From contig JAJYWS010000026.1 in NCBI GenBank assembly GCA_021791335.1, positions 1 to 48,244 of the forward strand: a DNA stretch of 48,244 bases, given 5' to 3'. Positions 28,053-44,095 of this stretch are shown here, in pieces. The DNA comes from Thermoplasmata archaeon. GTDB taxonomy: Archaea; Thermoplasmatota; Thermoplasmata; Lutacidiplasmatales; UBA184. The notes beneath the pieces are model-generated. The model was given only the letters and a program-made list of their open reading frames with translations, searched no databases and had not been told where the DNA came from. How positions within the stretch are numbered: the stretch's first letter is position 1; every line of letters begins with the position of its first letter. A program made the position numbers and the translations under genes.

Positions 28053-28853
28053 ATGGAGGGCAGTTTCTTCCTCTTCACGGCGCTCGTGGTCGCGATGGCG
28101 CTCGCGATCTTCCTCTCGTTGCCGGTCGTCCTGAACCGTCGGGCGATGGGCGGTCGCACCCTGGTCCTCCTGAATGCGGGCGCCATCGGGATCCTTGCGT
28201 TTCTTTTGGCCGACATCTTTTCCGATGTCGCGCCGCTGCTGGCCAGCGCTTCGACCGCCTACTTGACCGATCCGGCCCTTGACCTGGTCTTCCTGGGCGG
28301 CCTCGCCCTCGCGTTCGGCCTGCTGATGTTCGCGGAGGGCCGGCCGAACGACCGACTCCGGGCTCCGGCCGGCACGGAGGTGTCCGAGTCGGCGTGGCGA
28401 CTCTCCTTCATCATCGCCTTGGGCATCGGATTCCAGAATCTGACCGAGGGCTTGGTCTTCGGGGCCTCCTGGGCGGCCGGCCAGGTGGGCCTTGTGGGGG
28501 TGGTCTTCGTCGGCTTCTTCCTCCAGAACATCACCGAAGGGTTCCCGATCGTCTCCCCGCTCCTCGGTCGGGTGGAGGCCCCGGCCCGGTGGCGGCGGCT
28601 CACGGGCCTCTTCCTGATCGGCGGGATCCCGACGATCCTCGGCGGCTTCATCGGGTTCCGGTTCAGTCCAGTCCCCCTCCTGATCTTCTTCGATGCCCTC
28701 GCCATGGGGGCCATCCTGTACGTCTTGCTCCCGATGCTCCGGGGGGCGCTCCGGTCCCAGGCAACCCCGGAGGCGACCCGGTACCGCGCCCGGCTGGTCT
28801 ACTGGGGCATCCTGGTCGGGTTCCTCGTCGGGTTCCTGGTGAACGCACTCTGA
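28053..28853 (+). CDS. ZIP-family-like metal transporter
   Basis: About 8 TMs; ZIP signature positions GIGFQNLTEGLVFG and FFLQNITEGFPIVSPL. Confidence 0.78.
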   Translation: MEGSFFLFTALVVAMALAIFLSLPVVLNRRAMGGRTLVLLNAGAIGILAFLLADIFSDVAPLLASASTAYLTDPALDLVFLGGLALAFGLLMFAEGRPNDRLRAPAGTEVSESAWRLSFIIALGIGFQNLTEGLVFGASWAAGQVGLVGVVFVGFFLQNITEGFPIVSPLLGRVEAPARWRRLTGLFLIGGIPTILGGFIGFRFSPVPLLIFFDALAMGAILYVLLPMLRGALRSQATPEATRYRARLVYWGILVGFLVGFLVNAL

Positions 28854-29635
28854 GAGCGGCCGGAGGCAAGCGCCCGGACGAGCTTCCGAGCCGGGTCGTC
28901 CCCGTCGCCGTTCGACCAGATCTCCTCCAGGGCCGAACCCACGATGACCCCGTCCACACCGAGGCGGGCCGCCTCACGGGCCGTGGTCGCGTCCCGAATA
29001 CCGAAGCCGGCCAGGATCGGGAGATCGGGGGCCGTGTGACGGACCGTCTCCACCAGGGGCTTCAAGGGCGGTGCCGGGTTCGACCCTCCGCGGCCGGTGA
29101 TGCCGTAGCGGCTGACCAGGTAGAGGAATCCCCGGGCCGAACGGGCCACCGTCCGGGCCCGGTCGGGGTCGGCGCCCGGGGCCAAAAACCGGACCAGATC
29201 GATTCGGTGGGACCGGGCGCGGTCGGACCATGCCCGGGCCTCGTCCTCGGCGAGGTCGGGGACGATCAGCGCGGACGCCCCGGCCTCGGCGAGTTCCTCC
29301 AGCGGCCTCCCCGCTCCATCCCGCAGGAGGGGGTTCACGTAGGACATCACCGCGACCGGAAGGACCGTGGCGGCCGCCTGGACGGTCGCCAGCACGTCCT
29401 TCCAGCCGGTCCCGTGTTCGAGCGACCGTGCCGCGGCCTCCGCCAGGATCGGGCCGTCGGCGATCGGATCCGAAAACGGGATGCCGACCTCGACGGCGTG
29501 GGCCCCGGCCTCGCGCAGGATCCCCAGACGGTGCCTGACGGTCGGGGTGCGCCGTCGATCGGCCAATAGGTAGGGAACGACCAGGAATTCGCCGCGATCC
29601 CGCGCTTGGCGCAGTCCCTGCGCGAGCGGGATCAT
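28799..29635 (-). CDS. trpA: Tryptophan synthase alpha subunit
   Basis: [68 protein letters not shown]. Confidence 0.93.
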
Positions 29636-30780
29636 GCGGAGAGCCCCTCCAGATCCTTGTCACCGCGACCCGAGAGGGTCACCACAATGTGCTGGCCCCG
29701 GCGCCGGCGGGCCTCCCGAACCGCCGCGTACACCGCATGGGCCGATTCCAGGGCCGGAAGGATCCCCTCATCCTCGGCCAGCCAGTGGAACGCGCGCAGC
29801 GCTTCCTCGTCATGGACCGCCCGGTATCGGGCTCTCCCGCTCTCCTTGAGCTCGGCATGCTCCGGTCCGACCGCGGGGTAGTCCAGTCCCGCGGAAAGAC
29901 TCGCCGTCTCGAGGACCTGCCCGTCCGGGTCCTGCAGCAGGTAGGAGTAACTCCCGTGAAGCACGCCGGGGGTGCCGCGCGTCAGGGAGGCCGCCCCGGT
30001 CGCATGCCCGGCCGGCCCACCGGCCTCGATCCCGAGGAGTTCGGTCGGCTGGCCGAGCAGGGGGTGGAAGGTGCCGATGGCGTTGCTGCCGCCGCCCACG
30101 CAGGCGACCGCGAGATCGGGGGGGCCTCCCCACGCCGCCCGGCTCTGACGAAGGATCTCCCGGCCGATGACGCTCTGGAAGGCCGCGACGATCGTCGGGA
30201 AGGGGTGCGGCCCGACCACCGACCCGATGAGGTAGTGGGTCGTCGGGAGGTTTTCGGTCCAATCCCTCAGCGCGGCGTTGATCGCATCCTTGAGGGTCCG
30301 ACTTCCGGTGGTCACGGGGACCACCCGGGCGCCGAGGAGCCGCATCCGCAGCACGTTCGGCCGTTGGCGGGCGATATCCCGCTCTCCCATGTAGACGATG
30401 GTCTCGAATCCCAGGGCCGCCCCGACCATGGCCGTGGCCACGCCGTGTTGGCCGGCCCCGGTCTCCGCGATGAGCCGGGGCTTGCCCATCCGACGGGCCA
30501 GGACCGCCTGGCCGATCGCGTTGTTGATCTTGTGCGCCCCCCCGTGGAGGAGATCCTCCCTCTTGAGCCAGATCTCGGCCCCCTTCCCTCGAAGGGTCAG
30601 CCGGGGGGCCCGGTAGAGGGGTGTCGGCCGGCCCGCATAGGTGCGGAGACGGTCGGAGAGCTCTGCGCGGAACTTCGGGTCGCGGCGCGCCGAGCCCCAT
30701 GCCCGCTCCAGTTCGCGGAGCGCCGGAACCAGCGTCTCGGGGACGTAGGCGCCTCCGAACCGCCCGAAGCGGCTAGGCAT
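29632..30780 (-). CDS. trpB: Tryptophan synthase beta subunit
   Basis: [59 protein letters not shown]. Confidence 0.97.
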
Positions 30781-31417
30781 GGTTCGCCTCCGCGGCCTCG
30801 ACGGCGTTCAGGAACGCGCGGATCCGGTCGGACGACTTGACGCCGGGGGACGATTCGATCCCGCTCGAGGTATCGACCCCCCACGGTCGGGCCCGACGCA
30901 GCGCCTCCCCGACGTTCTCGGGTGTGAGTCCTCCGGCGAGGATGAGCTTCCGTCCCGGGTGCGCCTCGCCGAGGGCGGCCGCCGCGTCCCAATGGGCGAT
31001 CTGTCCGGTACCTCCCGGACGGGCCGGGTCGTCCGAGGAGTCGAGATGGATCCGGGGGAACTCCTCGGCCGGAGGCAGCGCCGGAAGCGAGGCGGCGTCG
31101 GGCGGTAGCGGGAAGGACGGGACCAGGTGGTGCCGCTCGAGGAAGTCCAAACCGTCCGGTATCGACCCGTAGACCTGGATCCGGTCGACGCCGACCTCAT
31201 CGAAGAGCGCGTGGATCCGGTCCGCGCTGGGGCCGACCACGACCGCCCACGCCTCCGTCCCCTGGGGGACGGCCGAGACCAGGGCGGCCGCTTGCTCAAG
31301 GGAGATGCTGCGGGGAGACCCCGGCACCTCGACCACAAAGCCGGCCGCACCTCCGGCCGGGAGCAGATCCATGAAGTCGGTCGACGTGAGGCCGCACAAC
31401 TTGACAAAGGTCTTCAT
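30773..31417 (-). CDS. trpF: Phosphoribosylanthranilate isomerase
   Basis: [19 protein letters not shown]..., [49 protein letters not shown] at 31417. Confidence 0.93.
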
Positions 31418-32208
31418 CCGTGATGCCCTTCCCCCGGCCCCCGGAGGGAGGCGAGGAACCTCAAGGGGTCTTCGCTCCGGGCCACGGCGCTCCCGACCAG
31501 GATCGCGTCGGCCCCCCGGCGCCAGAACCACTCGGCGGTCTCCGGGCCGGTCACTCCGCTGAGCCCGACGACCGCCGTACGGTGCGAGAGTGCCCCGAGC
31601 GTGGCCGAGGCTGTGGCGCGGTCGATCTCCAGCGTGTCCAGGTTCCGGACGTTGACTCCGATGAGGTCGGCCGGCACCCGGTCGACCCAATCCAATTCGT
31701 CCGGTGCGTGGAGCTCCAAGAGCACCTCCAGGCCCAGCGCATGGGCCCGGTCGGCGAGTCCGGCCAAGGGGACCTCGATGCCCGCCCGGGGGAGCGAGGC
31801 CAGGAGGAGGATCGCCGAGGCTCCGCTCCGCGCCGCGCAGTCGACCTGTCGGGGATCGATGACGAAGTCCTTGAAGAGCGCCGGTCGCGGGTCGTTCCGG
31901 GTGAGCTCTCTCAGATCGCTCGGGGACCCTTGAAAGTGGGGGGCGGCCGTGAGGCACGAAAGGCCCGCAACGGGGGCACCCCGGAGACGGTCAAGAAACT
32001 CATCGATCCGGTACTGCGGGAGGGGATGACCGGAACTTCCGGGAGCAGCCCGCTTGTACTCCACTATCAGGGCCTGCCGGCCCGCCGAGTGGAGCGCCTC
32101 CCGAAGGGAGGGGTGCGGCCGGGGCTCGGTGGCCGGTGATGCGTAGCCCCCGGCCTCGATGATCGGTCGGAGCTCCCCGACCATCTGCCGTAGAAATCCC
32201 CGGGTCAT
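31414..32208 (-). CDS. trpC: Indole-3-glycerol phosphate synthase
   Basis: LIVEYKRAAPGSSG, FKDFVIDPRQVDCAARSGASAILLL, LLELHAPDELDW, IGVNVRNLDTLEID, VGLSGVTGPE; ATG at 32208. Confidence 0.93.
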   Translation of the reverse strand: MTRGFLRQMVGELRPIIEAGGYASPATEPRPHPSLREALHSAGRQALIVEYKRAAPGSSGHPLPQYRIDEFLDRLRGAPVAGLSCLTAAPHFQGSPSDLRELTRNDPRPALFKDFVIDPRQVDCAARSGASAILLLASLPRAGIEVPLAGLADRAHALGLEVLLELHAPDELDWVDRVPADLIGVNVRNLDTLEIDRATASATLGALSHRTAVVGLSGVTGPETAEWFWRRGADAILVGSAVARSEDPLRFLASLRGPGEGHHG

Positions 32209-33245
32209 CTCGGCTCCTCCGGCCACTCGTCGCCCGCGGCCAGTTCCCGAAGCCGGCCGAGGAGTTCCTTGGGACGCCCGGAGTCGATCAACTCCCGAGC
32301 GCGGACCACCCCGGCCTCCAGACTGGGGGAGCGTCGGGCCAGAACGAGCGCCGCGGCGGTGGTCAGGACCACCGCACCCCGTCGCGCACCGGGGGCTCCG
32401 GCCAGCAGCGCCTCGGCGGCCCGGGCCGACGCCCGGGGGCGGAGGGCTCCCCAGGCGCCCCGGCGTTCCGCAGGCTCGAGCAGGGTTTCGGGCCGGAGGG
32501 TTGCCGACCGGGGTCGGGATCCCAGAGCCCACCAGAGGGAGGTGGGGTTCTGGGGGGAGATCTCGTCGCACCCCTCCGAGGAGCTGAGACCAACCACACG
32601 TCTGACGCCGCGTCGTCGCAGCGCGTCGACCAACAACCGGGCCGACTCGGCGTCTGGGGCTCCCACCAACTGGTAGGTGGGCCGAGCCGGGGTGATGAGG
32701 GGGCCCATGAGGTTGAAGACCGTCCGCCGACCGAGGGTCCGGCGTGCGGCCGCGACCCGGGCCACGGCAGGATGGAAGAGCGGGGCATGCAAGAAGGCGA
32801 TCCGGTAGCGCCGATACGTCGCCCGTGCGAACGACCGGGAGCGGGCGACCGGGAGTCCCCAGGCCTCCAGGAGATCGGTGGAGCCGGTGAGCCCGCGGGA
32901 ACTCCGGTTCCCGTGCTTGATGACCGGGATCCCGTCGGAGGCCACCACCAGCGCGCTCACCGTCGAGACGTTGAACGAGGGGACCGGGGCTCCCCCCGAC
33001 CCACACAGGTCGATCGTTTGGTCCGTCGAGGGGACGGGAAACGGGCGCATCTCCCGGCGGAGTACCTCGGCCCAGCGATGGAGGCGAGCTCCGGTGAGCG
33101 GCAGGTCCTGGATCCGCCGGAGCAGGGCGAGCCGTTCGCCGTCGTCGGTCTCCGGCCCGATGAGCCGTTCAAAGAGACCTTGGGCGGGATGCGGCGCGGG
33201 CTCGGGGGATCTTCGTCGGGGGGGCCGGGGGCGGGGGGTATTCAC
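32205..33245 (-). CDS. trpD: Anthranilate phosphoribosyltransferase
   Basis: DLCGSGGAPVPSFNVSTVSALVVASDGIPVIKHGNRSSRGLTGSTDLLEAWG, RTVFNLMGPLITPARPTYQLVG; GTG start at 33245 overlapping the trpG stop. Confidence 0.93.
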   Translation of the reverse strand: MNTPRPRPPRRRSPEPAPHPAQGLFERLIGPETDDGERLALLRRIQDLPLTGARLHRWAEVLRREMRPFPVPSTDQTIDLCGSGGAPVPSFNVSTVSALVVASDGIPVIKHGNRSSRGLTGSTDLLEAWGLPVARSRSFARATYRRYRIAFLHAPLFHPAVARVAAARRTLGRRTVFNLMGPLITPARPTYQLVGAPDAESARLLVDALRRRGVRRVVGLSSSEGCDEISPQNPTSLWWALGSRPRSATLRPETLLEPAERRGAWGALRPRASARAAEALLAGAPGARRGAVVLTTAAALVLARRSPSLEAGVVRARELIDSGRPKELLGRLRELAAGDEWPEEPR

Positions 33246-33826
33246 CGGCGCACCTCCGCCAGGAAGTTGGCCAGGATGGTGGGCCCCTCCGGAGTCAGGT
33301 ACGACTCCGGGTGGAACTGCACGCCCCAGAGCGGCCATTGAGTGTGACGGAGGCCCATCAGGATTCCCCCGCTCCCCCAGGCGGTCGGCTCGAGGGTCGC
33401 GGGCAGCCTTCGCGAGTCGACGAGGAGCGAGTGGTACCGGGCGGCCCGAAACGGGGACGGCACCCCCCGGAACAGCCGATCCCCCGCATGGACGATCCGA
33501 TCGGTGTCCCCATGCACCGGTTCGGGGGCCCGGACAATCCTCCCCCCGGAGTATTCCGCGATGAGCTGATGACCGAGACAGACCCCGAGGATCGGTCGGG
33601 ACGATCCCCATCGACGGAGGATGGCCCGGCTGAGCCGTGTCCGCCGGGGGTCGGAGGGCTGGCCCGGACCCGGGGAGAGCACGATCGCCTCCGGGTCGGC
33701 CGCTTCGGCCTCGGCCCACGGTCGGGTCGACCTCAGGCAGCTCACCCGGGCCCCTTGGCGCGATAGCTCCTGGACCAGGTTCTGGGTGAACGAATCCTCA
33801 TGGTCGACGACCAGGACCCGCGTCAT
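33242..33826 (-). CDS. trpG: Anthranilate synthase glutamine amidotransferase component
   Basis: VLVVDHEDSFTQNLVQEL, VLSPGPGQPSDP, ILGVCLGHQLIAEYSGG, GVQFHPESYLTPEG. Confidence 0.94.
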   Translation of the reverse strand: MTRVLVVDHEDSFTQNLVQELSRQGARVSCLRSTRPWAEAEAADPEAIVLSPGPGQPSDPRRTRLSRAILRRWGSSRPILGVCLGHQLIAEYSGGRIVRAPEPVHGDTDRIVHAGDRLFRGVPSPFRAARYHSLLVDSRRLPATLEPTAWGSGGILMGLRHTQWPLWGVQFHPESYLTPEGPTILANFLAEVRR

Positions 33827-35019
33827 GGGGACCCCGCAAGGACCGACTCGACCAGGGCGAGCTTGGCGAGGGTCTCCTGATACTCCCGACGGGGTTCGGA
33901 ACGGTGGACGATGCCGGCGCCGGCGGCGGTGTAGAGGCGATTCCCCGCCGCAAAGCCGGTGCGGATCGCCAGGGCCCAATCGGCCCGGTCATGGCCCGAG
34001 ATCCAGCCGACCGCGCCGGCATACGGCCCCCTCCAGGTCCGTTCCTCGGCCCGGAGCAGCTCGGTGGCCCGGATCTTCGGCGCCCCGGAAACGGTCCCGG
34101 CGGGCAGGGTTACGGCCAGGGCCTCCCAGGCACCGACCCCCTTCGCCAACGAGGCTTCGACCCGGCTCACGAGGTGCTCCATTCGGGCGACGCGCAGCCG
34201 TCGCTCGGTCCAGCGGAGCCGTACCGTCCCCGGGCACGCGATCCGCCCGAGATCGTTCCGGGCCAGGTCGACGAGCATCCGATGTTCGGCGAGCTCCTTG
34301 GGGTCGCGCGTGAGCGGCCGGCGCCCCCGGCCCTCGCGGCCGAGGGGCCGGGTCCCCGCGATCGGGTTGACCCGTCCCCATCGACCCTCGACTTCGACGA
34401 CCGACTCCGGTGAGGCTCCGACAACCTCTCGGTCGCCGAACCGGAGATAGTAGAAGTACGCCGACCGCTCCGACGCCCGCAGTTCCCCGGCCCGGTCCAG
34501 GAGATCCGCCGGCCGGTCCCAGCCGCGCCGGTGCGACAGGACGACCTGGAACGCTTCTCCCGCCCGGATCTGTGCGACGAGGTGCCGGACCGAGCGCTCA
34601 TAGGCCGGGCGGCTCAGGGAGTCCTCCCGGGGCACCCCGGGGCGGCGGCGGGTCCGACGGAGCCGGAGCCTTCCCACCGGCAGCCGGACGGTCCGGACCG
34701 ACTCCAGCCGGGCGAACTCCCCCAGCGGAAACGGGGCCCGGCCCGGCGGGCTCCCGAGCATCGGCTCTAAGAGGCCCACCCCATCGAACCCCAGGTAGCC
34801 GGCAACGGCCCGCCGACGGTGCCCCCGAAGATACCGGTCGGAGGCGCGGCCCAGACCCTCCCAGCTGTCCTTCGGGCCCACCGGTTGCGCGGGCTCGGGG
34901 GAGATCGCCCACTGGGCCACCCCCCCATTGCCCTCGGGACCGGTCCGCTCGAAGTAGGCCACGGTTTCCGCCGTCCGGGCGCCGGCGGCCGATACAAACT
35001 CGATCCAGGGATCGGTCAT
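33823..35019 (-). CDS. trpE: Anthranilate synthase component I
   Basis: AGEAFQVVLSHR, ASPESVVEVEGRWGRVNPIAGTRPLGREG, AEHRMLVDLARNDLGRIACPGTV, LPAGTVSGAPKIRATELL. A PabB-type role cannot be excluded by eye. Confidence 0.9.
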   Translation of the reverse strand: MTDPWIEFVSAAGARTAETVAYFERTGPEGNGGVAQWAISPEPAQPVGPKDSWEGLGRASDRYLRGHRRRAVAGYLGFDGVGLLEPMLGSPPGRAPFPLGEFARLESVRTVRLPVGRLRLRRTRRRPGVPREDSLSRPAYERSVRHLVAQIRAGEAFQVVLSHRRGWDRPADLLDRAGELRASERSAYFYYLRFGDREVVGASPESVVEVEGRWGRVNPIAGTRPLGREGRGRRPLTRDPKELAEHRMLVDLARNDLGRIACPGTVRLRWTERRLRVARMEHLVSRVEASLAKGVGAWEALAVTLPAGTVSGAPKIRATELLRAEERTWRGPYAGAVGWISGHDRADWALAIRTGFAAGNRLYTAAGAGIVHRSEPRREYQETLAKLALVESVLAGSP

Positions 35020-36335
35020 GGTCGGGGCGGAATCTCCACGAGCGCCCGATGGAGCGCCCGAAGGGTCGGACCCAGATCGGCGGTACGGACCGCCAGCGAG
35101 AGCGCCCGGGGGGTGGCGGCGACTCCGAGGGTGGTCCGGAGGATGCTCCGCGGCAGGCGGTACAGATCCTCGAGGATCCGCTCACCGATCGCGATGACCA
35201 TCTCCACCTCCTGAGGCGGTTCGACCGTCATCTCCCGATGCTGCACCAGACGGGCCAGGGCCCTCCGGGCCGTGCCCGCCTCCCGGGATTCCACGATCGC
35301 GCAGAGCATCGTCGCCGACGTGTAGAGCTGGATGACGTTCACCTGGGCCGCGGCCAGGCACCGGGTGACCTCGGCCATGATGCCCGGCTGTTCCCGGCCC
35401 CCCGGCACGCGGAGCCCGAGGAGGCGGAGCGAAGGGAGGACGGTCAGGGCTCGGGGGGTCCCGTGGTCGATCGCCGGGCCCACGGTGGTGGTCTGCCGAG
35501 GATCCGCCAGGGATCGGACGAGGATGGGGATGCGGGCCTGCCGCGCCGGCTCGATCGCCCAGGCATGCAGGACGCGGGCGCCGAACTGGGCCAACTCCTC
35601 GGCCTCCTCGTAGGAAAGGTAGCCGAGCGGCCGGGATCGGGGGACCCAACGGGGATCGGCCGACCGGATCGATACCCGCTGCTTGAGGAGCTCGACCCGA
35701 CGCGCGCCGAGCATCGCTCCGAGGGCTGTCGCGCTGTAGTCCGAACCGCCCCGGCCGAGGGTGGTGATCGTCCGGCCCGGCCCCTGCCCGAAGAAGCCGG
35801 TCACCACCGGGATGCGATCGGCCGCCCAGACCCGATCGATCCTCCGGCGCACCGTCGCTCGCGAGGCCTCCAGCCGGATCCGGGCCGCCCCGAAGTTCCG
35901 GTCGGTCCTGAGCCCCAGCCGGTCGGCGTCCAGGGAGGTCGCGGCGAGCCCTCGAAGGTTCATCTCATGGGCCAACCACACGGCCGCCAGCCGTTCCCCC
36001 TGCGCGGCGAGTCGATCGAGCTCGGAAGGCTCGCGGGATCGGGACGCCACGATCCCCCGCAGCGTCGCGTCCACCGTCTGCAGGATCGGATCGATCCCCG
36101 GGGCGGGTACCGGATGGCGCCGGCGAAGTTCATCGAGGAGCCGTGGGATCCGAGTCGAACGGACCGGGGGCCGGGCCGATTGGAGGAGCCGGTCGGTCAC
36201 CCCCTCCCGGGCCGAGACCACCACCAGGAGTGGGTTGCCCGGACCGCCCCGGAGCCGGATCCAGCGCACGACCCTGGCGGGATCGGAAAGCGCGGCCCCG
36301 CCGAACTTGAGCACGATCGGCGCCGGATCAGTCAC
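35016..36335 (-). CDS. Aspartate kinase with ACT-type C-terminus
   Basis: IVLKFGGAALSDPARV, VVVSAREGVTDRLL, VVTGFFGQGPGRTITTLGRGGSDYSATALGAMLGA, IMAEVTRCLAAAQVNVIQLYTSATMLCAIV. Confidence 0.92.
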   Translation of the reverse strand: MTDPAPIVLKFGGAALSDPARVVRWIRLRGGPGNPLLVVVSAREGVTDRLLQSARPPVRSTRIPRLLDELRRRHPVPAPGIDPILQTVDATLRGIVASRSREPSELDRLAAQGERLAAVWLAHEMNLRGLAATSLDADRLGLRTDRNFGAARIRLEASRATVRRRIDRVWAADRIPVVTGFFGQGPGRTITTLGRGGSDYSATALGAMLGARRVELLKQRVSIRSADPRWVPRSRPLGYLSYEEAEELAQFGARVLHAWAIEPARQARIPILVRSLADPRQTTTVGPAIDHGTPRALTVLPSLRLLGLRVPGGREQPGIMAEVTRCLAAAQVNVIQLYTSATMLCAIVESREAGTARRALARLVQHREMTVEPPQEVEMVIAIGERILEDLYRLPRSILRTTLGVAATPRALSLAVRTADLGPTLRALHRALVEIPPRP

Positions 36336-37410
36336 GGCCCCTCCCCGCGGTGAGTTCGATCCCCCGCCGGTCGACCAGTTCGGCGTTCAAGACCGATCCT
36401 CCGGCCCCCCCCCGCACGGCGTTGTGGGTGAGGGTGAAGAACCTCAGGAACGGGGGATCCCAGCGGATCCGGCCCACGACCGCGGCCATGCCTTGGGCCC
36501 GCCGAGGCGATCCCGCCCAGCGGTCCCGCAGGGGTTGGGGACGGTCGGCTTCCCGGCGCAGCAGGATCGGGGGAGACGGCGCCGTCGGGAGCCGCTCCGC
36601 TCGAAGGGGATCGAAGTGGCTCCAGGCCCGCTCCAACTCGGCCCGTGGGGGGCGTTGGGTGGCCTCGACCGTCACGGCCAGCAGGTGCCCCTCCCGGGTA
36701 CCGACCCGGGCGCACTGGGCCAGGACCCGGCAGGGCCAGGGGCCGATCCGCCCGCCCCGGCGGCGGCCCAGGATGCGGGCCGTTTCGCGTTCGATCTTCT
36801 CTTCCTCCTCCGGGATGTACGGGATGACGTTGTCGGTGATCGCCAGCGAGGGCACTCCGGGGAGACCGGCCCCGCTCAGGGCCTGGTAGGTCGTCACCTG
36901 GATCGTCCGAGGAGCGAGCAACTCCTTCACCGGGGCGAGCGCCAGGACCAGTCCGGTCGTCGAGCAGTTGGCATTGGCCACCAGGAGGCCCCGACCCCGT
37001 GGACGTCGGTCGGCCAGTCCCAGGTGATCCGCATTGACCTCCGGGATCAAGAGCGGGATCTCCGGGTCCATCCGGTGATCGGCGGCGTTCGAGAAGACGG
37101 CCATCCCCTGGCGGGACAGCTCGCTTTCGATGGGACCGGCGATGCCGGAGGGGAGTGCGGAGAAGATCGCGCGGATGCCGCGCCGCCGGAGCGCCGACGG
37201 TCCGACCGTTTCCACGGGCCGACGGGCGAGGGCCTCCGGGGGAGGATCGGCAAGATGCCAGAGGTCCTCCAGCCGGGAGCCTCGGCGCCGGGCGGTCCCT
37301 CCCAGGACCTGAAGGTCGAACCGCGGGTGGTCGGCGAGGAGGCGGACGAACTCCTGGCCGATGTACCCGGTCGCCCCGAGCACGGCGACCGGAATCCGCT
37401 CCTCGGTCAT
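36328..37410 (-). CDS. asd: Aspartate-semialdehyde dehydrogenase
   Basis: PVAVLGATGYIGQEFVRLLADHP, VANANCSTTGLVLALAPV, TTYQALSGAGLPG, NVIPYIPEEEEKIERET; ATG at 37410. Confidence 0.93.
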   Translation of the reverse strand: MTEERIPVAVLGATGYIGQEFVRLLADHPRFDLQVLGGTARRRGSRLEDLWHLADPPPEALARRPVETVGPSALRRRGIRAIFSALPSGIAGPIESELSRQGMAVFSNAADHRMDPEIPLLIPEVNADHLGLADRRPRGRGLLVANANCSTTGLVLALAPVKELLAPRTIQVTTYQALSGAGLPGVPSLAITDNVIPYIPEEEEKIERETARILGRRRGGRIGPWPCRVLAQCARVGTREGHLLAVTVEATQRPPRAELERAWSHFDPLRAERLPTAPSPPILLRREADRPQPLRDRWAGSPRRAQGMAAVVGRIRWDPPFLRFFTLTHNAVRGGAGGSVLNAELVDRRGIELTAGRGRD

Positions 37411-38495
37411 GGCAGAAACCCTCCCCGGAGGGCCAGGTCGGCCAGCGCCATCGCGGTGACCGACTCCAACGCCACCACCGCCCGGGGGACGATGCAAGGG
37501 TCGTGCCGCCCGGTCACGGTGACGGTGGTGTCGGTATGGTCCCGGAGGTCCACCGTCGCCTGAGGTCGGGCGATCGAGGAGGTGGGTTTGACCGCGAACC
37601 GGACCCGCAGCGGCATGCCCGTCGCGAGCCCCCCGAGGATGCCCCCGGAGTGATTGGTCCGGGTCTCCACCCGGTCGCCGACCCAGTGGAATGGGTCGTT
37701 GTGCTCACTCCCCCGCATCCGAGCCGCCCGGAACCCGGCCCCGAACTCGACGCCCTTGACGGCCGGGACGGAGAAACCGGCGTGGGCCACCACGCTCTCG
37801 ATGGAGTCGAAGAACGGTTCGCCGAGACCGACCGGGAGTCCGGTGGCTCTCACCTCCACGATGCCCCCCAAGCTGTCGCCCTCGCGGCGGGCCGCCCCGA
37901 TCGCCTCGGCCATCGCCTCCGCTACGGCCGGGTCGGGCGTGCCGACTTCGTGGAGGTCGCGTCGGGCCCTGAGCTCGGGGATCGACCATGATTCGGGTAC
38001 CGTCGCCTCGACCCCGCCGATCGACTGGGTGAAGCCGGCGACCTGGATCCCCCGGGGACCGAGCAGCTGGCGGGCGATGCTGCCGGCGATCACCAACCCC
38101 ACCGTCATCCGGCCGGAGAAGATTCCTCCCCCGGAAAGGTCGGCCTCCTCCCCGTACCGGATCCTCGCCGGATAGTCGGCGTGCCCCGGCCTCGGCGTGT
38201 ATCGGAGTCGGTCGTACGGGCCCCGCTGGACATCCGTGTTGGCCACATGGGCCCGGATCTCCCCGCCGTCGCTGCGTCCCTGGACGATACCGGAGTCGAT
38301 CACCAGCCGATCCTCCTCCTGACGTCGGGTCGCGAGACGACGCCCGACCGGACGGCGTCGGTCCAGGTCGGCTTGGATCTGCTCGAGATCCAGCGGAGTC
38401 CCGGCGGGGATGCCCGAGATCCGGGCCCCGACCTCGGGTCCATGGCTCGATCCGAAGATGGTCACGCGCATCCGAACACCCCACTCCATGCTCAT
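37407..38495 (-). CDS. aroC: Chorismate synthase
   Basis: IFGSSHGPEVGARISGIPAG, YDRLRYTPRPGHADYPARIRYGEEADLSGGGIFSGRMTVGLVIAGSIARQLL, GGILGGLATGMPLRVRFAVKPTSSI; ATG at 38495. Confidence 0.96.
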   Translation of the reverse strand: MSMEWGVRMRVTIFGSSHGPEVGARISGIPAGTPLDLEQIQADLDRRRPVGRRLATRRQEEDRLVIDSGIVQGRSDGGEIRAHVANTDVQRGPYDRLRYTPRPGHADYPARIRYGEEADLSGGGIFSGRMTVGLVIAGSIARQLLGPRGIQVAGFTQSIGGVEATVPESWSIPELRARRDLHEVGTPDPAVAEAMAEAIGAARREGDSLGGIVEVRATGLPVGLGEPFFDSIESVVAHAGFSVPAVKGVEFGAGFRAARMRGSEHNDPFHWVGDRVETRTNHSGGILGGLATGMPLRVRFAVKPTSSIARPQATVDLRDHTDTTVTVTGRHDPCIVPRAVVALESVTAMALADLALRGGFLP

Positions 38496-39772
38496 CGCAG
38501 TTTCTCCATCCTGACCCCGGCCGAGCCGAAGGCCGTACGAAAGGTCGGAAACGACTTGGCGGCCGACTCGCTGGGCCCGAGGATCGACGGCTCCGGCAAA
38601 GCCAGGGCGGCCACCAATGCGCTCAGGAAGAGCCGGTGGTCGGCGAGGTCGGTGCGCCGGAGCGATCGGGGGGGACTCCGCCCGACAATCTCGATCTCGT
38701 CCCGGGTGACCCGGGTCCGGGCCCCGAGCGATCGGGCGAGCAGGGCTGTGGTCGCCCGGCGGTCCGACTCCTTGAAGGCGGCGTGGCCGGCCCCCCGCAG
38801 TCGACTCGGGCCCGGGGTCAGGGCCGCCAGGACTCCCGCCAGGGGTAGAAGGTCGGGGGAGCGGGTGAAGTCCCAGACAAAGGGACGGCGCTCGCCGGCG
38901 CCGACCGAGGCCCCGTCCGGACGCCGGGTCACGCGGGCACCCCACGCCTCGAGGAGATCCAGCACCTCCCGATCGGCCTGGGGCCACTGGGGCCCCATCC
39001 CCGAAACCGTTACCCGGCCCCCGGAGACCGCGGCCCCGGCCCACAGATAGGCGGCCGAGGAGGCGTCGGTCGGAACCGCGAACCGATCGCCCCGGTACTG
39101 TTGTGACCCGGGGGTGGTGAAGAGCCGACCGTCTCGCTCGGCGTCCACCCGGTGATAACGGAGCACCGCCAACGTCGCGTCCAAGTACGGCTCGGAGACA
39201 ATCGGCCCTTCCAGACGGACCCGGGACGGTCCGTCCAGGACGGGAAGGGTCAGGAAGAGGGCCGAAGCGAACTGGGAGCTTTCGGACATCGGCAGGGTCA
39301 CGGTCCCCGAGTGGAGAGGGCCCTGGAGCTGGAGTGGGAGACCGCCGTTCCCGGCCCGTGGGGAATGTATCCGGGCGCCCAGGCGACCGACGGCCCGAAG
39401 GAGGGGGGCCAGGGGTCGCGCTCCCAGCCGGGGAGCCCCGATCAGGCCCACCGGGGCGCCAGAGAGGGCGGCGAGGGGCACCGCGAATCGGAGGGTGGTT
39501 CCCGACTCGCCGCAGTCGACGCGTCGGAGTCGGGAGGGCCGGCTCGACCCGGGGGTCAGGGTCCAATCGGAGGCGCGCCGCTCAACGTGGGTACCGAGGG
39601 CCCGGAGCAACCGCACGGTCGCCCGCGTGTCTTCGGAGTCCAGGGGCCGGAGCAGCCGGAACCTCCGCCCGGCCAGATGAGCCGCGACCAGGGCCCGATG
39701 GGTGTAGCTCTTCGACGGCGGGCCTCGGACCGATCCGCGGAGGGATTGCGGGGTGACCCGAAGGCGACTCAT
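38492..39772 (-). CDS. aroA: 3-phosphoshikimate 1-carboxyvinyltransferase (EPSP synthase)
   Basis: GPPSKSYTHRALVAAHLAG, DCGESGTTLRFAVPLAAL, SSQFASALFLTLPVL, DASSAAYLWAGAAVSGG, KESDRRATTALLARSLG; ATG at 39772. Confidence 0.93.
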   Translation of the reverse strand: MSRLRVTPQSLRGSVRGPPSKSYTHRALVAAHLAGRRFRLLRPLDSEDTRATVRLLRALGTHVERRASDWTLTPGSSRPSRLRRVDCGESGTTLRFAVPLAALSGAPVGLIGAPRLGARPLAPLLRAVGRLGARIHSPRAGNGGLPLQLQGPLHSGTVTLPMSESSQFASALFLTLPVLDGPSRVRLEGPIVSEPYLDATLAVLRYHRVDAERDGRLFTTPGSQQYRGDRFAVPTDASSAAYLWAGAAVSGGRVTVSGMGPQWPQADREVLDLLEAWGARVTRRPDGASVGAGERRPFVWDFTRSPDLLPLAGVLAALTPGPSRLRGAGHAAFKESDRRATTALLARSLGARTRVTRDEIEIVGRSPPRSLRRTDLADHRLFLSALVAALALPEPSILGPSESAAKSFPTFRTAFGSAGVRMEKLR

Positions 39773-40617
39773 GAACGCCCTCCGCCCATGGGGCCGCGAC
39801 CCAATCGGCCCACCGAGAACTGCCGACCCTCGGCGGGAAGGACCGCGCCGATGGAGGGAAGCCGGTCGGGCGGACCTACCGCGACCAGCGCCGGTCCCAT
39901 CCCCGAGACCCCGGCCGCGATCGCGCCCGCCCGGCCCATCGCCGCACGGATCTCCGTAAAGTCGTAGCCCATGGCAGACTCGACCAGGAGGCCGTTGGCG
40001 TCGAGGGCGGGGGCCAGGTGGCCTTCGAGGACCATCCGCTCGACCGGCTGGGCGCTCGACCGGAGCCCCGCGAACCGGGCGACCGCGGTCGGCGACGGCG
40101 GGTGGGTCCGATCGGGCACAAAGACGACCGCCCCCCAATCCGGGGGGACGGGGTGGGTGAGGAGCCAACGATCCTGCCGGTTGTCGGTCACGACGACCCC
40201 GTCCACAAGCCCCGCCAGAGCGTCGTCCAAGGCGCCGGTCGCGCTGAGGCCCACCGACCGTCCGACTCGGGCCGATAGACGGGCGATCTCGAAGGGGGTC
40301 GGGTGGGCCCCCAGGAGGTCGGCGACCGCGGCCAGCGTGGCCGAGGCCACCGCGCTCGAGCTCTTGAGGCCCCGCCCGGCGGGGATCTCGGAGCGGATCT
40401 CGACCTGAATCCGGGGCGTTTCCGACCCGCCCCACTCGGTGCGGCCCACCTCGATGGCCCGGGTCACCAGGGGGCTAGCTCCGGCGGAGGGGACGGGGTC
40501 GGCTTGGAACCTCGCCTGGACCTCGACCGCCAGCGGCAGGGCCGTGGCCGCTCCGATCCCGGTGAAGAGGGCGTTGAGGAAGGTCATCGCTCCCGTCGCC
40601 CGCCCTATGCCTCGCAC
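39769..40617 (-). CDS. Archaeal GHMP-family shikimate kinase
   Basis: IPAGRGLKSSSAVASATLAAVADLLG (GHMP P-loop), GLSATGALDDALAGLVDGVVVTDNRQ, GVSGMGPALVAVG; GTG start at 40617 retains the conserved N-terminus RGIGRATGAMTFLNALFTGIGAATAL. Confidence 0.9.
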   Translation of the reverse strand: MRGIGRATGAMTFLNALFTGIGAATALPLAVEVQARFQADPVPSAGASPLVTRAIEVGRTEWGGSETPRIQVEIRSEIPAGRGLKSSSAVASATLAAVADLLGAHPTPFEIARLSARVGRSVGLSATGALDDALAGLVDGVVVTDNRQDRWLLTHPVPPDWGAVVFVPDRTHPPSPTAVARFAGLRSSAQPVERMVLEGHLAPALDANGLLVESAMGYDFTEIRAAMGRAGAIAAGVSGMGPALVAVGPPDRLPSIGAVLPAEGRQFSVGRLGRGPMGGGRS

Positions 40618-42107
40618 GGCTCTGCCTCCCGGAGCGCCTCCTCCACGAGTCGATCGGAGGGCGGCGTGCCCCACCAGATCCCGTACGAGGCGGCGGCCTG
40701 GTAGAGCAGGAGCCGCAGCCCGGATTCGTAGGAGGCGGCCCGGGCCGCGGCCGCGTTCCGAAGGCTCGGATCGGTCGCGGCGTAGACGAAGTCGAGCAGG
40801 TGACCCGAAGGGGCCAGCATCTCCCGGATCGGCAGGGCGTCTCCCGAGGGTCCGCGGCCGACCGGAGTGGCGTGGATCACCAGCGAGCTCGCCCGCCCCC
40901 GGCCGGGGGTCCAGCATTCGACTCCGAACTCACGGGCCAGTTGCTCGGCCATCAGGGCCCGGCGTCCCCAGATCGCCACCCGGGCACAGTGTTCCCGCCC
41001 CGCGACCACGGCCGACCGGGCCGCCCCTCCCGTGCCGGCCACCACCAGATCCTCCCCGCTCCAGACTCCCGAAACCTTCAGTTCGGTGAGCCTCCGCTGG
41101 ACCGCGTAAAGGTCGGTATTGTCGGCCCGGACCGTCGAGCCCTGGAAGGTCAACGTGTTGGCGCTGCCCACCGTTTCGGCGCTCGGCTGCCGCCGGTTCG
41201 CCGCCGTGAGCGCCGCCTCCTTGAAGGGCGCGGTCACATTCACTCCCCGCAGGCCTCCCTCGGCCAGCTTCGGGAGGATGCGGATCAGTTCCTGGGCCGA
41301 TTCCGGTTCGAGGGCCAAGTAGAGGCCCGCCCGGTCCTCGGCCCCCATCCAGCGGTGGTGGATCCACGGGCTCCAGGATCGGGCGGCGGGCCGCCCCACG
41401 ACAGCCAGGATCGGCGCCGGAGGTTCGGCTGCGTAGAACCGTCGAAGCCGGTCGACCGGTAGCTGGGCCGGATCGACCCGGCGGCTCACGTCGGTCGGCC
41501 GACGTTCGGGGGGCGCCGCAAACACATAGGGCAGACCGAGGCGCCGGCCCCAGGCCCGTTGGAGTGGGCCGGCCGGGCCGGTCGCCAGGAGCGTGACCCC
41601 CGAACGGGCCGCGGCCTGAGCGCGCGCCAAGATCTCGTCCAGGCCGGGGCCCAGGGTCACCGAAACGACGACTTTGCGAACCGCTCCCGAAGGGACCGGG
41701 TGCTGGAGCTCCCGCGCGAGGTCGGAGGGGGTCGCTTCCGGGGAGAGATGGGTCGACACCCAGACGGCCGGAGCCGGGCCCCCGGCGCCGCGGGCCGGGA
41801 GAGCGTCCCGGGCCGCCTCAAAGTCGATGGCGGCCCAGCCGGCCCCACCGACCCGCGCGCGAAGCCTCGCCCGCTCTGCGGGGTCGTCCGGACCTTCTCC
41901 CCCCTCCGCCCGCGAGCGCAGCGTCAGGAGGAGAGGAACAGGGCTCGGCAACAGTTCGCGGGCGCGGCTCCGATCCGGCTCCGACCATCGGTCCAGGCGG
42001 ATCTCGGCCATGTCGGCGCCGGCCCGGTGGGCGTCCGCAAGCTCCGTCCGGGCCTCGTCGAGACCCCGGGCCGTGAGCGTGACCACCAGGCGGGGAACCC
42101 CGTTCAT
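40605..42107 (-). CDS. Bifunctional type I 3-dehydroquinate dehydratase / shikimate dehydrogenase (AroD-AroE fusion)
   Basis: N-half AroD-like (MAEIRLDRW, VRKVVVSVTLGP). C-half AroE-like (GVNVTAPFKEAALTAANR, AETVGSANTLTF, ADNTDLYAVQRRL, VVAGTGGAARSAV, GLRLLLYQAAASYGIWWG). Confidence 0.9.
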   Translation of the reverse strand: MNGVPRLVVTLTARGLDEARTELADAHRAGADMAEIRLDRWSEPDRSRARELLPSPVPLLLTLRSRAEGGEGPDDPAERARLRARVGGAGWAAIDFEAARDALPARGAGGPAPAVWVSTHLSPEATPSDLARELQHPVPSGAVRKVVVSVTLGPGLDEILARAQAAARSGVTLLATGPAGPLQRAWGRRLGLPYVFAAPPERRPTDVSRRVDPAQLPVDRLRRFYAAEPPAPILAVVGRPAARSWSPWIHHRWMGAEDRAGLYLALEPESAQELIRILPKLAEGGLRGVNVTAPFKEAALTAANRRQPSAETVGSANTLTFQGSTVRADNTDLYAVQRRLTELKVSGVWSGEDLVVAGTGGAARSAVVAGREHCARVAIWGRRALMAEQLAREFGVECWTPGRGRASSLVIHATPVGRGPSGDALPIREMLAPSGHLLDFVYAATDPSLRNAAAARAASYESGLRLLLYQAAASYGIWWGTPPSDRLVEEALREAEPCEA

Positions 42108-43132
42108 CGCTCCTCGATCGACTCCTCGATCGCCTGCCCGAGATGCCGGCCCGGGGGGAACCGGCAGCCGACCAAGCGGTCGCCCGGGCGAAGACCGGTC
42201 ACCGGCGTTCGGCCGCGAGGCCCCGAAAGTCGTACCGTCTCCGCCTCCTGGACGAAAAGGGTGCGACTCCGGCCTTCGACAGTGACCTCCAGCAGCGTCA
42301 GGGGTCGACGTTCGATCTTGATCCGGCCGACCCGTACGGAACGGCCGTCCGCACGGGGGTCGCTGACGAACACCGCGTCCCCGGGGACGAGTTCGGAGAG
42401 GTATCGGGTCGTCCCGTTGGCCAGGAGGACATAGGAGTGGGCCGCGCCGGCGTTGACCCGAAAGGAGCGGGGCCGGGTGTAGGCCGAGCCCTCCGCCTCA
42501 CTGGCCACATGGAAGAGGAAGGCGGCGGTGCTGCCCACCAGCAACCCCTCCGACGGCCGCAGGATGGAGGTCGTATCCACGAGGACCCGGTCCCCCATGC
42601 CCGCCGGACGGAGGCTCCGGAGCCGGGCGAGCGTCCAGCCGGCCAGCGCAGGCGGGCGCGCCTCGAGAGCCGCCTCGACGCTGTCCACCGCGTCGAGCGA
42701 GTCGGCCGGAACCACCACGGCGTGGGCCCCATGTTCCAACGCGCCGAGTGCGGCCGGTAGCTCCGAGGGCCCATCGATCAGGGCCCAGACCCTAAACGAG
42801 GTTCCGGCATCGGCCCGGAGGTTTTCGAGGGGAATGACCCGGTCCCGGACCCACTCGACCGCCACCGCCCCCTCGCGAGCCCCGACCTCCCGAGCCCGGG
42901 CGAGGGCGGCGGGCGAATCGACCCGGACGATCGGGATCGGCGGGCCGTCCGGCCGGGGTCGCAGCTGGCGGCCGATCCGGTCGTAGATCCGGACCGTGCT
43001 TGTCGGCTGTCGGAGATCTTTCGGAGGAAGCACCAGCATCCCGAACCCGCGCCGCACCGCGTACTCGGCAATCCGTGTCCTCTCCGGGAGCGAATCGGCC
43101 GTGGGCTGGATGGCGACCCGCTCCCGCGTCAC
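42104..43132 (-). CDS. 3-dehydroquinate synthase II (archaeal type)
   Basis: GMGDRVLVDTTSILRPSEGLLVGSTAAFLFHVASE, RPRSFRVNAGAAHSYVLLANGTTRYLSEL, VEGRSRTLFVQEAETVRL. Confidence 0.92.
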   Translation of the reverse strand: MTRERVAIQPTADSLPERTRIAEYAVRRGFGMLVLPPKDLRQPTSTVRIYDRIGRQLRPRPDGPPIPIVRVDSPAALARAREVGAREGAVAVEWVRDRVIPLENLRADAGTSFRVWALIDGPSELPAALGALEHGAHAVVVPADSLDAVDSVEAALEARPPALAGWTLARLRSLRPAGMGDRVLVDTTSILRPSEGLLVGSTAAFLFHVASEAEGSAYTRPRSFRVNAGAAHSYVLLANGTTRYLSELVPGDAVFVSDPRADGRSVRVGRIKIERRPLTLLEVTVEGRSRTLFVQEAETVRLSGPRGRTPVTGLRPGDRLVGCRFPPGRHLGQAIEESIEER

Positions 43133-43890
43133 GGAGTCGATCCGTCCCCGTGCAGGAGTGCGCCGATGCGGCGGGCCAGAGGACCCACCGGCGGGCGCTG
43201 GAAGAGTTTGCGTCCGATGCAGATGCCGGCTCCGCCGGCACTTCGGACGGCGCGGAGCGTGGCGAACAGCGCCTCCTCCGTATCGGTCTTCGGGCCGCCC
43301 CCGATCAGGATGGGGACGGGAGTCGTTGAGACCGTCCGGCCGAACTCCCCCGCATCACCCGGATACGGGATCTTCACCAGGTCGGCGCCCAGATCGGCGG
43401 CCGCCCGGGCAGCGTGCCGCACCTCGGCCGGAGCCACCGGTCCCGGCCGGACCACATAGACCATCGCCAGCAACGGGATCCCGAGCCGACGGCAGTCGTG
43501 CGCCGTGCGGCCGAGCGCTTCGATCATCTCGGGCTCCTCGGGAACCCCGAAGTTGACTTGGACCGAGACGAGGTCCGCCCCCAGACCTACGGCGTCGGTG
43601 ACGCGGCCCACTTGGACCTTCCGCTGCTGGGTCGTGCCCAGGCCGGTGGACGCCGAGAGGTGGACGCCGAGCCGGGTGGTCGGCCCGAGGAATGGGGCGA
43701 CCGTGCGCACCGCCCCCGGGGGGACGATCAGAAGGTCGGCCCCGGCGTCGGAGAGTTCCTTCGCCAACGGTGCAGTGGATTCCAGCCCCTCGATCGGTCC
43801 CAAGGTGACCGAATGGTCCAGCGGGACCGCAAAGAGGCCCCGGGCAGCGCTCGGCAAGAGGCGTCGCATCCGAATTTCGGTTCCGTTCAT
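43129..43890 (-). CDS. 2-amino-3,7-dideoxy-D-threo-hept-6-ulosonate synthase (ADH synthase, class I aldolase family)
   Basis: RGLFAVPLDHSVTLGPIEGLE, VHLSASTGLG, GADLVSVQVNFG, GADLVKIPYPGD, PVPILIGGGPKTDTEEALF, GAGICIGRKLFQ; ATG at 43890. Confidence 0.91.
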   Translation of the reverse strand: MNGTEIRMRRLLPSAARGLFAVPLDHSVTLGPIEGLESTAPLAKELSDAGADLLIVPPGAVRTVAPFLGPTTRLGVHLSASTGLGTTQQRKVQVGRVTDAVGLGADLVSVQVNFGVPEEPEMIEALGRTAHDCRRLGIPLLAMVYVVRPGPVAPAEVRHAARAAADLGADLVKIPYPGDAGEFGRTVSTTPVPILIGGGPKTDTEEALFATLRAVRSAGGAGICIGRKLFQRPPVGPLARRIGALLHGDGSTP

Positions 43891-43921
43891 ACTCCCTCTC
43901 GAAGGTTGAGCCCAATCGAAA

Positions 43922-43991
43922 GGGAGGCACGGGGAAGGCGGCGAGGGGTGGCCGTCGGCCACCGTCGGTCGGCACCCTCCCGGTGCCTCCC
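43922..43991 (-). promoter_or_regulatory. Putative attenuator-like leader RNA with mutually exclusive inverted repeats
   Basis: Minus-strand arms: A GGGAGGCAC (43991-43983) pairs perfectly with E GTGCCTCCC (43930-43922). Alternatively GGCACC (43987-43982) pairs with GGTGCC (43976-43971). A nested hairpin GGTGGCC-GAC-GGCCACC lies at 43963-43947. Confidence 0.45.
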
Positions 43992-44088
43992 GATCACCAG
44001 AGCCACGGCATGGCCGCTCCGGTGAGACCGCCTGTGAAAACAAGCCGGCTCGCCGGGTCTGCCATCGGACCTAGGACCCTCCCGGTGC
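43974..44088 (-). repeat. 13-bp exact direct repeat GCACCGGGAGGGT (minus), copies at 44076-44088 and 43974-43986
   Basis: ACCCTCCCGGTGC on plus at 43974-43986 and 44076-44088. One copy is immediately downstream of the candidate TATA, the other is in the attenuator-like segment. Confidence 0.5.
43994..44011 (-). CDS. Putative tryptophan-rich leader peptide (MPWLW)
   Basis: Minus strand ATG CCG TGG CTC TGG TGA; SD-like GGAG at 44020-44017, 5 nt before the ATG; lies ~100 nt upstream of the first aro gene. The in-frame tail AAMPWLW appears at the end of ORF-track entry 43994..44236. Confidence 0.45.
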   Translation of the reverse strand: MPWLW

Positions 44089-44095
44089 TATTTAG
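44089..44095 (-). promoter_or_regulatory. Candidate TATA box (CTAAATA) for the aro-asp-trp operon
   Basis: Minus-strand CTAAATA overlapping the stop of the upstream gene. Expected start ~44066 gives a ~175-nt leader that contains MPWLW. Confidence 0.4.

Follow-up and report, generated by a model that had tools for sequence, protein, structure and literature searches.

Codon-sensing attenuation is a textbook bacterial mechanism. In the bacterial trpL leaders (Escherichia coli; Corynebacterium and Streptomyces in PMC1262725), a short ORF with tandem or nearly tandem Trp codons precedes the trp genes, the position of the ribosome sets which of the mutually exclusive arms pair, and the body of the peptide is not conserved; these features recur, or are predicted to recur, in the archaeal leader described here. 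In translational attenuators of the ermC and cat type, the stalling of a ribosome within the leader ORF opens a helix that holds the SD of the following gene, as we propose for this locus. The LEU element of Actinobacteria combines a leader peptide containing codons for the regulated amino acid with pairing to the leuA SD and has no terminator (PMC1262725), and the present leader resembles it in all three respects. The regulators described for archaeal trp operons are limited to two transcription factors, TrpY in Methanothermobacter and Tar in Thermococcus (PMC6737238), which share with the system proposed here the end-product control of aromatic amino acid operons. We found no report of an archaeal leader-peptide attenuator in the open-access literature, and given this scope of the search we do not claim priority.

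Judging from sequence comparison and folding models, we consider it probable that the archaeal aro-asp-trp operon analyzed here is controlled by a ribosome-mediated Trp attenuator, in which a leaderless uORF gates translation of the first gene through its SD. The parts of this reading differ in strength. On the comparative evidence a Trp-codon leader peptide is very likely and ribosome-dependent switching is likely; for the output, gating of first-gene translation is the best explanation, and polarity on the rest of the operon is plausible. The preliminary description held in essence that an archaeal aro-asp-trp operon has a Trp leader peptide and alternative hairpins; the comparative tests support this, with changes to the ORF and to the switch that are given below.

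The operon and its leader ORF

The window, a stretch of 48,244 nucleotides, is part of the 1.41-Mb genome of a soil archaeon and carries the operon on its minus strand; the leader element is also present in dozens of relatives. Pfam assignments give the gene order aroA' (from 43890), aroB', aroDE, aroK (GHMP), EPSP synthase, chorismate synthase, asd, lysC and trpE-G-D-C-F-B-A (to 28799), bearing out the aro-asp operon ending in trpEGDCFBA that had been read from the sequence. The first gene, aroA' (43129–43890), is of the ADH (2-amino-3,7-dideoxy-D-threo-hept-6-ulosonate) synthase type and belongs to the DeoC/LacD family (PF01791, E 1.1e-32). The genes from aroB' through lysC occupy 35016–43132, in an order that is the same in relatives, and the seven trp genes occupy 28799–35019. 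The 5' neighbor of aroA' runs in the same direction and encodes a protein of the TENA/haem-oxygenase-like superfamily; its stop codon overlaps a TATA box, TAAATA, at 44089–44094.

All sequence elements of the preliminary description were found on the minus strand where it had placed them, including ATG CCG TGG CTC TGG TGA at 44011–43994, an 18-mer that is single-copy in the genome. This had been read as an SD-led ORF of five codons encoding MPWLW. We rejected ATG 44011 as the start codon, since this inner ATG is missing in nearly all relatives and an ATG at 44065 is present in all of them. MPWLW is instead the tail of a leader-peptide ORF of 23 codons plus TGA (43994–44065), MADPASRLVFTGGLTGAAMPWLW*, rather than a separate peptide. 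The first regulatory Trp codon (TGG, 44003–44005) is matched in 62 of 63 leaders by a Trp codon here or elsewhere within the last four, and the second is directly followed by the TGA stop (43994–43999). From the first base of the TATA box to ATG 44065 the distance is 29 nt, a leaderless spacing from which we infer that transcription starts at or beside the uORF ATG. A start downstream of 43994, for example a leaderless one at aroA', had been named as the arrangement that would speak against an attenuator; the TATA box puts the start upstream of the ORF. The two bases before the ATG are CG (44066–44067 in the window); among the 49 genus leaders, 44 have G at −1 and 39 have C at −2, and leaderless promoters of this group may have an initiator element here.

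Thirty close relatives gathered by aroA' similarity share a strongly conserved block, TGG CTC TGG TGA AC GGGAGGCGCC GGGAG GGCGCC. Scans of genomes of the genus and of GTDB representative genomes yielded 49 distinct leaders of the genus. A covariance model built from these and run on 400 genomes of the class added 11 leaders from five other genera. With two leaders of genus g28 recognized by eye and one further leader of the original genus that has a long spacer (L077), the total is 63, spanning six genera of one Thermoplasmata family (order UBA184 / Ca. Lutacidiplasmatales). The named records among the leader-bearing genomes are Thermoplasmata and include genome UBA184, which has been assigned to Ca. 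Lutacidiplasmatales (PMC9287336). The class-wide search of 400 genomes gave no real match outside this family; its sole match elsewhere, in genome G171, resembles ordinary coding sequence, has no leader ORF and was discarded. Additionally, the element is absent before aroA' in nine loci from other families of the order and class.

The layout of the ORF, which is the same in the five further genera, is tightly kept. Among the 49 genus leaders, the distance from the start of the TATA box to the ATG is always 28–31 nt, and the ORF measures 69, 72 or 75 nt (exactly 72 in 42), always a multiple of three, with no in-frame stop in 930 body codons. The spacer to aroA' occupies all three mod-3 classes in the same leaders. 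An aroA' start further upstream was considered, the frame being open back to a TTG at 44043, but this spread of spacer lengths shows that open frame to be due to chance.

The Trp codons are confined to the end of the ORF. None occurs in the 930 body codons of the genus leaders and two stand at the end, TGG-TGA closes the ORF in 63/63 leaders, and a second Trp codon lies within the last four codons in 62 of 63. The genus ORFs end in WLW (46 leaders) or in WPW, WSW or GSW (one each), and those of the other genera in WSW, WAW, WGW, WWW, PWW or WSWW, so the Trp codons are constant and the residue between them changes. Differences between close pairs are spread evenly over codon positions 1, 2 and 3 (47, 53 and 40), indicating that the peptide body is not under amino acid selection. 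Relatives thus do have the short Trp-codon ORF that the preliminary description expected upstream of aroA', with a peptide that drifts outside the Trp residues. The Leu codon between the Trp codons (44000–44002 in the window) is CTC in 46/49 genus leaders, with no synonymous change, and the other genera have Ser, Ala, Gly or Trp in its place. Pairing of the CTCTGG codons with the GGGAG sequence downstream was considered as a cause of this invariance and rejected, as it is lost where that loop varies, and no other partner accounting for the codon was found.

Association of the leader with trp genes

Eleven leader-bearing genomes have contigs long enough to follow the operon, and in all 11 it runs on into trpE-A. 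Within the genus, trpE was found in 45 of 53 leader-bearing genomes, the other eight being fragmented MAGs that are 56–83% complete, and in none of the 16 leaderless genomes that have aroA'. Every leaderless operon examined lacks trpE, C, B and A, and trpF is the only trp gene left in most of them. On the aroA' protein tree the leaderless state requires two losses, one in a clade of 13 and one in G063, whose sister has the leader; together with the absence of the trp genes, this indicates that the leader was lost with them twice, independently. In genus g24, one genome (G120) carries the leader directly before trpE instead of aroA', the leader there accompanying trpE, and in three of the four g24 genomes trpE has no leader in the ~300 bases read upstream.

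Two lineages of the genus have operons without trpE, trpC, trpB and trpA and no trpE anywhere in their assemblies (loci L118–L121 and L134–L144; genomes G010, G017, G024, G007, G063, G085, G065, G078, G074, G079, G061, G075, G076, G077 and G084). Both are predicted from gene content to be Trp auxotrophs. Retention of trpF in the same operon in most of these genomes suggests another role for TrpF there. The aroA' spacers of L121 (G007) and L135 (G085) contain GGGAG/GGCGCC-like fragments without the TATA box and uORF, which resemble the remains of a decayed leader. Among seven genomes of the genus examined (G000, G028, G001, G032, G101 and G062 included), HisG (PF01634) turned up in one; histidine synthesis may be missing from most of these archaea or may involve an unrecognized enzyme.

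Alternative folds and access to the SD

Arm A, GGGAGGCACC (43982–43991), starts 2 nt after the uORF stop and can pair with either of two partners; the sequence GGGAGGCAC reported previously lies within it at 43991–43983. In the proximal hairpin, GGCACC (43987–43982) pairs with arm B, GGTGCC (43976–43971), around a GGGAG loop (43977–43981). In the distal form, arm A makes 9 bp with arm E, GTGCCTCCC (43922–43930), which lies ~50 nt beyond it; the GGGAG loop then pairs with CTTCCC upstream of E, and an inner hairpin, GGTGGCC/GGCCACC (43947–43963; arms 43963–43957 and 43953–43947), tops the long A:E rod. A point absent from the preliminary description is that the CTCCC of the distal arm also pairs with the SD of aroA'. 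The anti-SD segment CTCCCTTTCGA (43916–43926), which overlaps E, forms an 11-bp helix in the MFE structure with the SD region TCGAGAGGGAG (43892–43902), position 43926 through 43916 pairing with 43902 through 43892. The 16S 3' end of the same genome carries the expected anti-SD, CACCTCCT. The 172-nt leader as a whole is more stable than 200 of 200 shuffles (z = −4.56).

Both pairings are preserved across the relatives, in agreement with the alternative hairpins originally proposed. Folds of the stretch that begins with A and runs to the SD contained a long rod with at least 6 A:E pairs in 60/60 leaders; an A:E-like far pairing appeared in only 22% when the part 3' of B was shuffled. The A:B pairing is possible in 60/60. 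RNAalifold on a MAFFT alignment recovered only the A:B hairpin (7 pairs, one with a double change), since E is unaligned across species, and anchored folding of each sequence was used in its place for A:E. Covariation in the A/B and A/E arms, looked for as a further check on the original proposal, is present but limited in extent. A GC-to-AU double change in A:B separates the window genome and its nearest relative from the 47 others: position 8 of arm A is A in the window genome and its sister, with matching changes in B and E. Compensatory or G-U changes also occur at positions 4, 5, 7, 11, 14 and 15. Because arm A hardly varies, few positions contribute to the covariation, and a large part of the case for A:E is one-sided G-C/G-U change.

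To relate these folds to the position of the ribosome, each leader was folded from successive 5' boundaries, with the ribosome edge placed, as in bacteria, at 16 nt from the P-site codon. A stall at the first Trp codon then corresponds to a boundary at +1 after the stop and a ribosome at the stop codon to +10. Mean predicted SD accessibility was 0.43–0.44 at the first-Trp boundary and 0.22 at the stop boundary (49 leaders), falling in 38 of the 49 and rising in two (Wilcoxon p 2e-11). This drop of 0.204 compares with −0.017 ± 0.024 when the segment from B to the SD was shuffled; the SD is purine-rich and E pyrimidine-rich, and the shuffles cover only in part the pairing expected from composition. 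In the 11 leaders of other genera, which were not used to set up the test, predicted accessibility went from 0.52–0.56 to 0.21 at the same position. For roughly one leader in four, that of the window included (0.08 to 0.00), little change is predicted, because the E:SD helix wins in both states.

By the same edge rule, a stall at the second Trp codon behaves like a ribosome at the stop codon. The masking of arm A by a stalled ribosome, as first proposed, applies to the second Trp codon and the stop and does not hold for the first Trp codon, where arm A should be left free. It is this free arm A that would bring out the right sign of the response, low Trp being ON. The predicted sign would fit a biosynthetic operon, with the SD open during a first-Trp stall and closed once translation of the uORF is finished.

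Proposed mechanism, alternatives and relation to known systems

In the mechanism we propose, transcription would begin at or next to the ATG of the short leaderless ORF, and a ribosome would read ~20 unconstrained codons before meeting the Trp codons right before the stop. If charged tRNA-Trp is scarce, the ribosome would wait at the first Trp codon with its leading edge just short of arm A. Arm A would then be free to form the long rod with E; with E tied up in the rod, the first gene's SD would stay open and the aro-asp-trp operon could be translated. If Trp is plentiful, the ribosome would reach the stop and cover arm A, and E would be left to pair with the SD, so that the first gene is no longer translated; the remaining transcript may then be lost through polarity. 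Without a ribosome, A:B may also draw A away from E.

A less favored but serious alternative keeps the same Trp-codon sensor and gives it a transcriptional output, the ribosome's position deciding whether FttA/aCPSF1 or a pausing RNA polymerase stops within the leader, much as rho-dependent attenuators work in bacteria. Transcription and translation are coupled in Archaea, and competition between FttA/aCPSF1 and the ribosome has been proposed (PMC8116511); the long A:E rod could affect RNA polymerase, and a long operon would gain by sparing transcription. Against this, it is the SD to which the 3' arm is tuned, and the predicted gate disappears once the spacer is shuffled. Additionally, no U-tract was found in any of the 49 leaders, the longest T run being at most 4 nt, which argues against an intrinsic terminator and confirms the earlier remark that no strong U-tract is visible. 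Among the outputs that had been left open (anti-termination, pausing or translational control), sequestration of the SD is the most likely, rather than termination.

It is unlikely that the element instead works in the manner of TnaC, with a nascent WLW sensing free tryptophan, arresting at the stop and covering A so that E closes the SD and high Trp is OFF. Such a reading would account for a last codon that is Trp in 63/63 leaders and for an arm A that follows at once after the stop, and a ribosome held at the stop does give the OFF fold. However, known arrest peptides require several fixed residues in the exit tunnel. The leader peptide lacks such conserved residues: comparison of the bodies within the genus and of the peptides between genera revealed none besides Trp, and the middle residue varies freely from genus to genus.

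We regard it as improbable that the conserved block is a DNA operator or RNA site for a TrpY-, Tar- or TRAP-like regulator, with the ORF incidental. The archaeal trp control known so far does consist of transcription factors (PMC6737238), and TGGCTCTGG and GGGAGGCGCCGGGAGGGCGCC are almost invariant in the genus, even at the third position of the Leu codon. In the other genera, however, the constraint on CTC is gone and the Trp codons remain. A binding site would also leave unexplained an ORF whose length is held to multiples of three, with a fixed start and an unconstrained body, and two mutually exclusive pairings that are kept through sequence change. Finally, a functional microprotein or a chance feature of a GC-rich spacer is very improbable: the frame is open and stable hairpins are common in GC-rich sequence, but the body shows no amino acid constraint, and chance is already refuted by the conservation of an element that six genera share, that was lost along with the trp genes and whose fold and gate shuffles do not reproduce.

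If the SD-gated Trp attenuator is true, codon-sensing attenuation extends to a second domain of life, with archaeal ribosomes serving as a sensor of tRNA-Trp charging. Its confirmation would mean that Archaea evolved or retained leader peptides of the codon-sensing kind, which there use leaderless initiation and SD gating. The element would then be a natural reporter linking archaeal ribosomes, RNA folding and possibly FttA polarity.

A search of the leader against Rfam returned no family at gathering score, Trp_leader included, and only chance matches to miRNA models, far below cut-offs, so a known RNA family was set aside. Relative to bacterial trpL, the system is archaeal, its uORF is leaderless and its Trp codons abut the stop, whereas the bacterial ones lie several codons before it; its operon starts with aro and aspartate-pathway genes, and in place of a U-tract terminator a competing hairpin is predicted to close the SD. 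The ermC and cat attenuators respond to antibiotics through drug-induced stalling, whereas here the proposed signal is the Trp codons and the genes are biosynthetic and archaeal. In the bacterial LEU element the pairing partner of the SD is the run of codons, in a pseudoknot-like fold, while in the archaeal leader it is a separate arm, E, and arm A mimics the SD. TrpY and Tar are DNA-binding transcription factors, whereas the evidence here favors an RNA that acts in cis and is read by the ribosome. Thus, the kind of mechanism proposed is one known from bacteria, and what would set the present case apart is the domain in which it is found, leaderless initiation, Trp codons abutting the stop, and gating of the SD by an arm that mimics it.
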